In this document: one piece after another, positions 37,949 to 39,575 of the stretch
How the letters are laid out: each line of letters opens with the position of its first letter
Numbering within the stretch: position 1 is the first letter of the stretch
Made by a program: the position numbers and the translations under genes
Source: Rothia aeria
GTDB lineage: Bacteria > Actinomycetota > Actinomycetes > Actinomycetales > Micrococcaceae
Assembly (NCBI GenBank): GCA_002355935.1
Contig: AP017895.1
Coordinates: 620,001 to 684,000, forward strand
Reading direction: 5' to 3'
Length of the DNA: 64,000 nt
Notes under the pieces: model-generated
The model's database searches: none
What the model was told of the DNA's origin: nothing
Seen by the model: the letters and a program-made list of their open reading frames with translations, nothing else

Positions 37949-38565
37949 CTAGGACTCCTGCACAATAATGCGCCCAATTTCGGCTGAGACGTCGCGCATA
38001 GCGTTCGCGGCGGCGCTGAGGCGCGTAATGAACTTGGTGTAGCGGCGGTACCGTTCCATAGGGTAGCGGGCGGCCAGCTGCGCGTCGTACTCTTCGGCGG
38101 TGCGCACCGCTTGGCGGGATATGCGCAGCATGTCCATCCAGTAGGTGTCCAGCCCCTGACGTCAATAAGTTTAGGGATCACCGCTTCGGTGAGTACCGCC
38201 TGCCGCTGAATAATGTCGAGAATGGCGGTGCTGTGCGTGGCGAACCCGTCAATACGGTGTAGATAGAGGATGTGCGCGGCACTGGTGAGCTCCTCCACCG
38301 CACTGGTGAGTTTACGGGCGAGCGTGTACAGGTCTTCACGCGGTAAAGGGGTGGCGAACGAGCTGCGCACAGAGGTGAGGGTCATAAAAAATAGTTCGGT
38401 GCAGCTGGCCTCGTGGGCGAGCATCCGCTCGAATAGGTCAGGGTAGTCGCTGGTGGGGGTGCCGACCATTTCCGAAAGGAGCGCCGCCGCGCCCGCAACC
38501 TGCGCCGAAATCTGCGCCAGTGACTGCAATGAACTGTTTTCTTGCGGGAAGAGGCGTTGAAGCAT
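37949..38565 (-). CDS. DUF47 (PhoU-like) regulator of the PiT transporter
   Basis: About 205 residues, all helical, PhoU-like. Starts MLQRLFPQENSSLQSLAQIS. The frame breaks in the run 38153-38156; an extra base gives LIDVRGLDTYWMDMLRISRQAVRTAEE and a normal end at GRIIVQES. Without correction the protein would run into the pit gene. DUF47 proteins bind and modulate PiT transporters. Confidence 0.88.
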
Positions 38566-38611
38566 ATACCGATTCTATCTCTGTTGTGAACTTCGGTGGC
38601 TGGGTGTGGGT

Positions 38612-38750
38612 GCAAAAGAAGAGGCCAACGAATCCGCTGACCTCTTCGATACGTATGGGATGTCGGGTTGGGAGCGCCTCTCGGCGGAAGGCCGCTCGAA
38701 GCGGCAAATGATTTGGAGCCCGGGGCTACCTATTAGCAACCCGACATCTT
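38612..38750 (-). ncRNA. Candidate structured small RNA, unassigned
   Basis: Between the DUF47 start and the next gene, the minus strand carries a complete transcription unit. Twelve-base arms (38737-38748 and 38659-38670, gatgtcgggttg / caacccgacatc) close a 90-nt structure with three inner hairpins (agcccc-gggct; gccgct-tcg-agcggc; cgcc-gaga-ggcg). It is followed by a terminator, 13-bp stem at 38618-38647 then tttt. I recognise no 4.5S, 6S, tmRNA, RNase P or common riboswitch pattern. It may be a stand-alone sRNA or an attenuator for DUF47-pit, 47 bases further on. The rest of the 38566-38873 gap has no ORF I trust. Confidence 0.6.
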
Positions 38751-38756
38751 GTAATC

Positions 38757-38785
38757 ATTATCCCGCCCGTGCGGGGGCCTGTCAA
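38757..38785 (-). promoter_or_regulatory. Consensus sigma-70-type promoter for the candidate small RNA
   Basis: On the minus strand, TTGACA (38780-38785) and GATAAT (38757-38762) are separated by exactly 17 bases, with the closing stem of the structured RNA beginning about 8 bases after the -10. This is the best promoter match I saw in the window. Confidence 0.75.
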
Positions 38786-38873: not shown

Positions 38874-39575
38874 TTAAAATCCTTCAAGTCCCCCATGTTG
38901 ACGCCACAGCAGGGCCACAGCTTCTAAATCTTCAGCGATTTGCCCCAGCCTGCGCACTCGTTCGGGGATGCTTAACATGCGGTTCACGCCCTCGCGGCGC
39001 ACCTCATGGCTGGGGGCGAGCGGCACATGCACTCCGGCGGCACGGGCTATGTCACCTGCGGCGTACTCGGCCTGTAAACCGAGCGCCACCACCCGCGCGA
39101 ACGCGGCGAAACGCTCCAGGGCTATATCAACCTCACCTTCGTACACCCCCGCTAGGATACTGTCTGCTGTGGCCACTACCTCCCAGGCGCTGGGCGGGTC
39201 GGGCACGCCCGCGAGCACGTGTGAACGGTAGTCGTCCTCGAGCCCTTTGGCGAAGGCGCGGCTAACCGCTGGTGCGTCACGGTGCACCGCATCCCGTAGC
39301 GAGTACATGCGCCACAGCGCCCCCGGCAATGACTGGGCGGGGGCTGAGGCCCACATGAGCGCTAACGTTTCAAGGCCGTACTCGTCGGTGAAGTCCACGA
39401 GGCGTTGGGCCACCTGCGGGTCTGTGTTGGCGCGCCCACGGGCCAGTAAGACGCGCGCTGAGGCGTACGCCGCCTCATGCTGGGCGGCAGGGTTTTCACC
39501 ACCGGCCTGGCGCTCAAAAATTTCGTGAGAAGCCAATACGGGCCGATGATAGCTGCGGGGTGTTGAAGGAACCAT
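38874..39575 (-). CDS. Conserved helical protein of unknown function
   Basis: 233 residues, starting MVPSTPRSYHRPVLASHEIFERQAG-type sequence. Predominantly alpha-helical, alanine-rich, without signal peptide, membrane segment or cofactor motif. I recall similar Micrococcaceae proteins annotated, without justification, as RNA polymerase beta-subunit homologues. It lies just downstream (on the opposite strand) of tRNA-Lys. I cannot assign a role. Confidence 0.75.
   Translation of the reverse strand: MVPSTPRSYHRPVLASHEIFERQAGGENPAAQHEAAYASARVLLARGRANTDPQVAQRLVDFTDEYGLETLALMWASAPAQSLPGALWRMYSLRDAVHRDAPAVSRAFAKGLEDDYRSHVLAGVPDPPSAWEVVATADSILAGVYEGEVDIALERFAAFARVVALGLQAEYAAGDIARAAGVHVPLAPSHEVRREGVNRMLSIPERVRRLGQIAEDLEAVALLWRQHGGLEGF

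Follow-up and report, generated by a model that had tools for sequence, protein, structure and literature searches.

We identified, on the minus strand of the window (the whole 64,000-nucleotide stretch of Rothia aeria DNA analysed here), the gene of a predicted RNA that we regard as a new family within a known kind, the stand-alone structured bacterial RNA; its identity with scr2952, a small RNA (sRNA) of Streptomyces coelicolor, was compared by position only. The proposal of the initial annotation, a stand-alone structured RNA without a known family, is well supported by strong covariation among homologues, by a -10-like element within a narrow zone upstream of the RNA in relatives, by the lack of an Rfam match and by a spread over the class.

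Promoter, fold and terminator-like stem

The structured element that had been described at positions 38612-38785 is real. The features that we distinguish there are, in order of transcription:

38780..38785, minus strand: -35 hexamer TTGACA (sequence match)
38757..38762, minus strand: -10 hexamer GATAAT, spacer 17 (TAnnnT in the corresponding zone of relatives)
38737..38748, minus strand: 5' arm of the outer helix P1, GATGTCGGGTTG (from the fold; 12 of 12 pairs change on both sides)
38726..38730, minus strand: 5' side of the inner extension of P1, GG(U)AG, in which A and G form pairs with the U and C that immediately follow P4
38706..38725, minus strand: joining strand J1/3, which starts CCCCGGGCUCCA (CCCCGGG in 122 of 123 distinct sequences)
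38691..38705, minus strand: hairpin P3, GCCGC-UUCGA-GCGGC (one pair C-G to U-A in some diverse sequences)
38675..38686, minus strand: hairpin P4, CGCC-GAGA-GGCG (100% paired, one-sided changes only), directly abutting P1
38671..38674, minus strand: 3' side of the inner extension of P1, CUCC (comparison of the inner pairs)
38659..38670, minus strand: 3' arm of the outer helix P1, CAACCCGACATC (fold and comparison)
38614..38647, minus strand: terminator-like 13-bp stem (38647-38618) followed by TTTT (from the fold; not typical of the family)

The consensus promoter reported for this strand is present, TTGACA-17-GATAAT agreeing with 11 of 12 consensus positions in the promoter scan of the minus strand, and two promoter-like sites were present in 2 kb, where shuffled sequence gave 0.4 on average. 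The 12-bp stem (38748-38737 with 38670-38659) starts 8 bases past the -10 hexamer and closes, as had been stated, a fold of about 90 nt, with three inner hairpins in the energy model. The minimum-energy fold (-65.3 kcal/mol, shuffled mean -42.6, z = -5.7) was equalled by none of 200 shuffles. The terminator stem with its T tract was also found again, and it is absent from the output of the terminator scan, which asked for 5 T in 8. From the expected start to this terminator the RNA would measure about 137 nt, and the DUF47-pit genes follow at the distance given in the initial annotation, the DUF47 start (38565) lying 47 bases past 38612.

In relatives, we looked for TAnnnT starting 45-20 nt before the CCCC of the RNA and recovered it in 91 of 127 distinct loci, with a sharp peak at -33 to -26; a stretch of equal length further upstream had it in 2 of 127. 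This contrast is somewhat overstated, since coding, GC-rich sequence is frequent upstream. The zone held no TAnnnT in the other 36 loci. Promoters of S. lividans share the same -10 consensus, according to the part of that study available to us (PMC8079986). Intrinsic terminators were weakly enriched (33 of 127 loci, compared with 13-23 in five shuffles) and a clear one was lacking in 94 of 127. Judging from these loci, the terminator stem of the window is not a trait of the family.

Structure conserved among homologues

Comparative analysis showed the supported structure to be a three-way junction of the predicted helices P1, P3 and P4, in which P1 is contiguous with P4 and J1/3 is near-invariant. 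Covariance, which the initial annotation had suggested as a check, proved strong in relatives. Among 80 sequences found by a motif pattern, 15 of 24 pairs changed on both sides, a number reached by 1 of 500 shuffles; the covariation score of 0.371 was matched by none of 500, and paired cells amounted to 96.1% against 32-45% in slid controls, the alignment having been fitted to a covariance model, R1 (built from 32 sequences), so that these values favour the P1 pairs which R1 models. Support for the innermost P1 pair is independent of R1, since this pair lies outside the model: it was standard in 77 of 78 sequences (G-C 45, A-U 29, C-G 2, U-A 1, other 1). The second inner pair gave A-U 71, G-C 2, U-A 1, G-U 1 and three mismatches in the same number of sequences. 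In a set of 40 diverse sequences, the two inner pairs were standard in 36 and 34, respectively.

The three inner hairpins of the initial annotation fared unequally. All are in the energy fold, and P3 and P4 are conserved; the first, P2, was unsupported by comparison and we rejected it, as 32 of 79 sequences have a non-standard closing pair and the hairpin covaries less than shuffled columns. P3 was invariant in the 80-sequence set because the scan pattern required it; in the 40 diverse sequences one of its pairs changed from C-G to U-A five times, with pairing kept. The strand between P3 and P4 is short, mostly 4-5 nt, and J1/3 starts exactly with CCCCGGGYYCCA in 112 of the 123 distinct sequences. 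Over these 123, mutual information reached a z of 5 only in P1 (by construction for its nine outer pairs, which were aligned by pairing), in the inner P1 pairs, in one P3 pair and in columns 10/85 and 12/84, which adjoin P1; it revealed no further clear contact of J1/3. A coding function of the stretch was rejected, as the linkers between the conserved blocks vary by single bases.

Distribution and neighbouring genes

A BLAST-type search recovered the RNA in all 59 genomes examined from genus to order, the genome of the window included, and in all of their 24 genera. R1 (E<=0.01) detected it in 225 of the 394 class genomes searched, representing 73 of 137 genera; counting good-quality genomes only, the figure was 203 of 360. 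A broader model, R2 (E<=0.001), was applied to 396 genomes sampled across the phylum and matched 32, of which 31 are members of the class; the sole match outside it (G735) was marginal at 33 bits. By these searches the RNA is not universal in the class, because 169 of the 394 genomes contained no R1 copy under strict filters and one genus (g36) was mixed, with four genomes with a match and five without among those listed.

Scanning a collection of 84,980 species with the motif pattern returned at least 119 stretches, pattern-selected by design; the 80 listed were all from Actinomycetota by their record titles and were all R1 hits as well. The carriers named among these matches include Cellulomonas, Brevibacterium, Microbacterium, Bifidobacterium, Nocardioides, Tessaracoccus, Modestobacter, Jiangella, Actinomyces, Arcanobacterium, Rothia and others; Streptomyces is probably also a carrier.

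The genome of the window contains a single match, even at E<=10. Elsewhere, we observed two tandem copies 82 bp apart with different P1 sequences (L103, 2384-2483 and 2566-2665). Second, weaker matches of 34-44 bits in three genomes of the group f37/g51 (G113, G167 and G188) may be diverged paralogues, as may the matches in G150, both of which are likewise weak (34-44 bits).

We compared the surroundings of 135 loci, 131 of them distinct as four places were duplicated. The most frequent neighbour was an orphan protein gene, which lies upstream of the RNA in the window:

38874..39575, minus strand: up233, the orphan protein gene

It neighbours the RNA in 90 of the 131 distinct loci, mostly upstream of it and in the same orientation (77 of 135 rows). 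This gene was present in 114 of the 394 class genomes, and 112 of these also carry the RNA, a co-occurrence for which shared ancestry inflates any test; 113 genomes with the RNA showed no up233. The two lie less than 500 bp apart in 88 of the 114 genomes and less than 6 kb apart in 102, in several orientations; in the remaining genomes up233 was on another contig (seven), far away (two), or the RNA was absent or its place not listed (three). This proximity, persisting in several orientations, suggests that the linkage was kept through rearrangements.

The up233 proteins form an actinobacterial family of roughly 195-270 aa, nearly confined to genomes with the RNA. Pfam contained no family for 37 of them, and NCBIfam yielded two single weak matches only. 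A profile search of the PDB retrieved chains of GlnRS (E 0.035 and 0.24). The AlphaFold model (pLDDT 87.8) has an all-helical predicted fold and no PDB match at E<=0.001; its best Z of 7.7 may, for a helical protein, mean only a common arrangement.

Other neighbours differ between lineages. By eye, Streptomyces-like loci have a HelD-like gene and, downstream, a malic enzyme gene, and Mycobacterium-like loci a WhiB-like gene and, downstream on the opposite strand, an acyl-CoA carboxylase-like gene. One locus (L106, 2887-3077, minus strand) contains a match to RF02471, the actinobacterial sRNA Ms_IGR-5, about 250 bp from the RNA copy. Because of these differences between lineages, the RNA appears not to be tied to one downstream gene.

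The initial annotation had raised the possibility that the RNA is a cis-acting, phosphate-linked riboswitch or attenuator of DUF47-pit, which follows it on the same strand in the window. Among the 121 distinct loci that extend at least 1 kb past the RNA, 33 also have DUF47 following in the same orientation, but 88 do not, and different genes follow in other lineages. A consistent leader position was thus not found, and we rejected attenuation of DUF47-pit as the general function. By sequence comparison, genes for phosphate uptake are indeed neighbours in a looser sense: Pit, DUF47, PstA or PstB occurred within 4.5 kb in 57 of the 131 distinct loci. Of the rows in which none of these was found, 47 covered at least 2.5 kb downstream and 28 covered a shorter stretch. 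Between the RNA and DUF47 we noted a further element:

38572..38591, minus strand: promoter-like motif GTTCAC-8-TAGAAT before DUF47-pit, with similar motifs in DUF47-type rows

We take this motif to resemble a PHO-box half site with a -10 element. When searched as GTT(A/C)A(C) followed after 6-12 nt by a loose -10, it was found in 14 of 33 DUF47-type rows, the window included, and on none of the 33 reverse strands; some of the 14 are loose, the match of one locus (L063) falls in the terminator region of that locus, and three places among the rows are duplicated, all without the motif. It is a possible conserved phosphate-type promoter of DUF47-pit. These genes may well have their own promoter, which argues against an attenuator in the window as well, and we consider the cis-acting reading highly improbable. 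Some read-through from the RNA into DUF47-pit may nevertheless occur there.

The DUF47 gene itself (38565-37952, minus strand) has a frame change at window positions 38152-38158, residues 1-138 and 137-205 of a relative aligning in two frames with 82-84% identity. A sequencing error, a pseudogene or a frameshift could each account for it.

With a -10-like element upstream and a downstream gene that varies by lineage, the RNA is most likely a stand-alone transcript and not a riboswitch of DUF47-pit.

Known RNA families, candidate functions and significance

The Rfam scan suggested in the initial annotation returned no family for the window or for the homologues compared: at the gathering cut-off of Rfam 15, nothing matched the window RNA or 33 further loci (one place counted twice), and searches at E<=10 or E<=1 gave sub-threshold matches only. 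McaS (21.9 bits for a cut-off of 42) and ctRNA_p42d (19.8 for 50) were among the latter; they cover largely the terminator stem and were taken as chance.

Several known RNAs share some properties with that of the window. The 6C RNA (RF01066) is also a small actinobacterial RNA with cytosine-rich letters, but it consists of two stem-loops with at least six C each instead of a three-way junction, according to the text available for PMC8388888. We found no RF01066 match at the locus of the window or in its genome, with a control search that was positive in only 1 of 14 genomes. Ms1 (scr3559, MTS2823) is likewise a widespread stand-alone RNA of Actinobacteria; it differs by its length of about 300 nt, by an HAD-hydrolase neighbour in most species and by its binding to the RNA polymerase core, as described in the available parts of PMC9130861 and PMC11077062. 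We rejected this identity, the RNA of the window having an expected length of about 137 nt and being flanked by up233 and DUF47-pit. The small SRP RNA (RF00169) is also short and has a single match in the genome of the window, but it lies elsewhere (C1:779532-779628, outside the window).

A positional candidate is scr2952, whose number is the one expected for an RNA located, like the Streptomyces-like homologue, beside a HelD-like gene. This homologue (L097) lies, by eye, between a malic enzyme gene and a HelD-like gene, the same arrangement as SCO2951 (malic enzyme) and SCO2952 (HelD). It may be the scr2952 named in the available text of PMC8388888, because its neighbours resemble these two genes. 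However, scr2952 is said there to be in Rfam, and no Rfam family matches the homologue; RNA 2952 is also missing from the Rfam table of S. lividans in the accessible part of PMC8079986. Two Rfam entries considered for it, RF02829 and RF02834, turned out to be Scr4115 and VqmR. For 6C, one genome (G397) has a candidate just below the cut-off (C1:4864659, 45.9 for 47 bits) away from its copy of our RNA (C1:3404958). Set beside the length and synteny of Ms1, these differences make it improbable that the RNA is a divergent representative of some described family or was already detected as 6C, Ms1 or scr2952. If scr2952 is the Streptomyces-like homologue, its expression in S. coelicolor has already been reported.

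A literature search with motif strings of the RNA retrieved only a paper on a Yersinia plasmid, judged unrelated from its listing, and no description of a class-wide family was found in the literature searched, which lacked most subscription journals. A metatranscriptome study names Rothia RNAs, and the candidates in the part available are others (PMC7160235). Studies of Streptomyces report many conserved intergenic RNAs (PMC3765725, PMC11678152, both available in part), mostly without Rfam names according to the latter, and the family of the window RNA may be among them.

As to function, we favour, tentatively and with a little less than even confidence, an independently transcribed, trans-acting noncoding RNA that would be bound by protein. 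Transcribed from a housekeeping promoter, it would have its 5' end close to the foot of P1 and measure about 90 nt plus, in the window, the terminator stem. A protein would then read the junction, and the RNA would work as a ribonucleoprotein (RNP), being a scaffold, sponge or guide; this is the least sure step. It is proposed because the letters of J1/3 are conserved, as are those on either side of the P3 and P4 stems, whereas plain antisense action would require only pairing; such conservation favours protein recognition or tight tertiary packing. The up233 protein may take part in the same process, although it cannot be the sole partner since half of the genomes with the RNA show no up233. 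RNA polymerase is an unlikely partner in S. coelicolor, as sequencing of the RNAs pulled down with it (RIP-seq) reported two others, scr3559 and scr0792, in the available text of PMC11077062.

The main rival to the RNP reading is a base-pairing sRNA whose junction presents a pyrimidine-rich seed (CCCC, YYCC) to G-rich sites in mRNAs, such as Shine-Dalgarno sequences. J1/3, being without supported pairing, is usable as a seed, and the four letters past GGG are all pyrimidines in 117 of 123 sequences (CUCC 84, UCCC 25, CCCC 4, CCUC 4), each tetramer being complementary to a purine-rich core like that of Shine-Dalgarno sequences. The consensus in S. lividans is A/GGGAGn (PMC8079986, in part), and C-rich loops occur in highly expressed sRNAs of Streptomyces (PMC3765725, in part). 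This seed is, however, fused to CCCCGGG, which hardly varies, and the letters conserved in P3 and P4 would be needless for pairing with mRNA; we therefore consider the antisense explanation unlikely.

It is more improbable still that the RNA senses a small molecule or acts as a ribozyme, the three-way junction serving as pocket and the RNA being released as a short transcript. The conserved letters do cluster at the junction and the capped stems, as in aptamers, and the letter conservation of P3 and P4 could result from tertiary packing that serves catalysis or the binding of a ligand, but there is no consistent downstream gene and Rfam gave sub-threshold matches only.

The RNP reading can be extended to an undescribed housekeeping RNA of Actinomycetes with a reach like that of 6S RNA or tmRNA, which would form an RNP with a conserved actinobacterial protein in a central process, up233 being a lineage-specific accessory. 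We consider this extension doubtful.

Few RNAs are conserved across a bacterial class with almost no change of letters, and several of those that are (6S RNA, tmRNA, SRP RNA, RNase P) have central roles in the cell. The RNA described here was found in every genome examined between the levels of genus and order and in over half of those examined across the class, which include gut, oral and soil groups, and annotation based on Rfam misses it because no Rfam family matches. The alignment, the structure and the single gene in the genome of the window make this RNA directly open to genetic and biochemical work.
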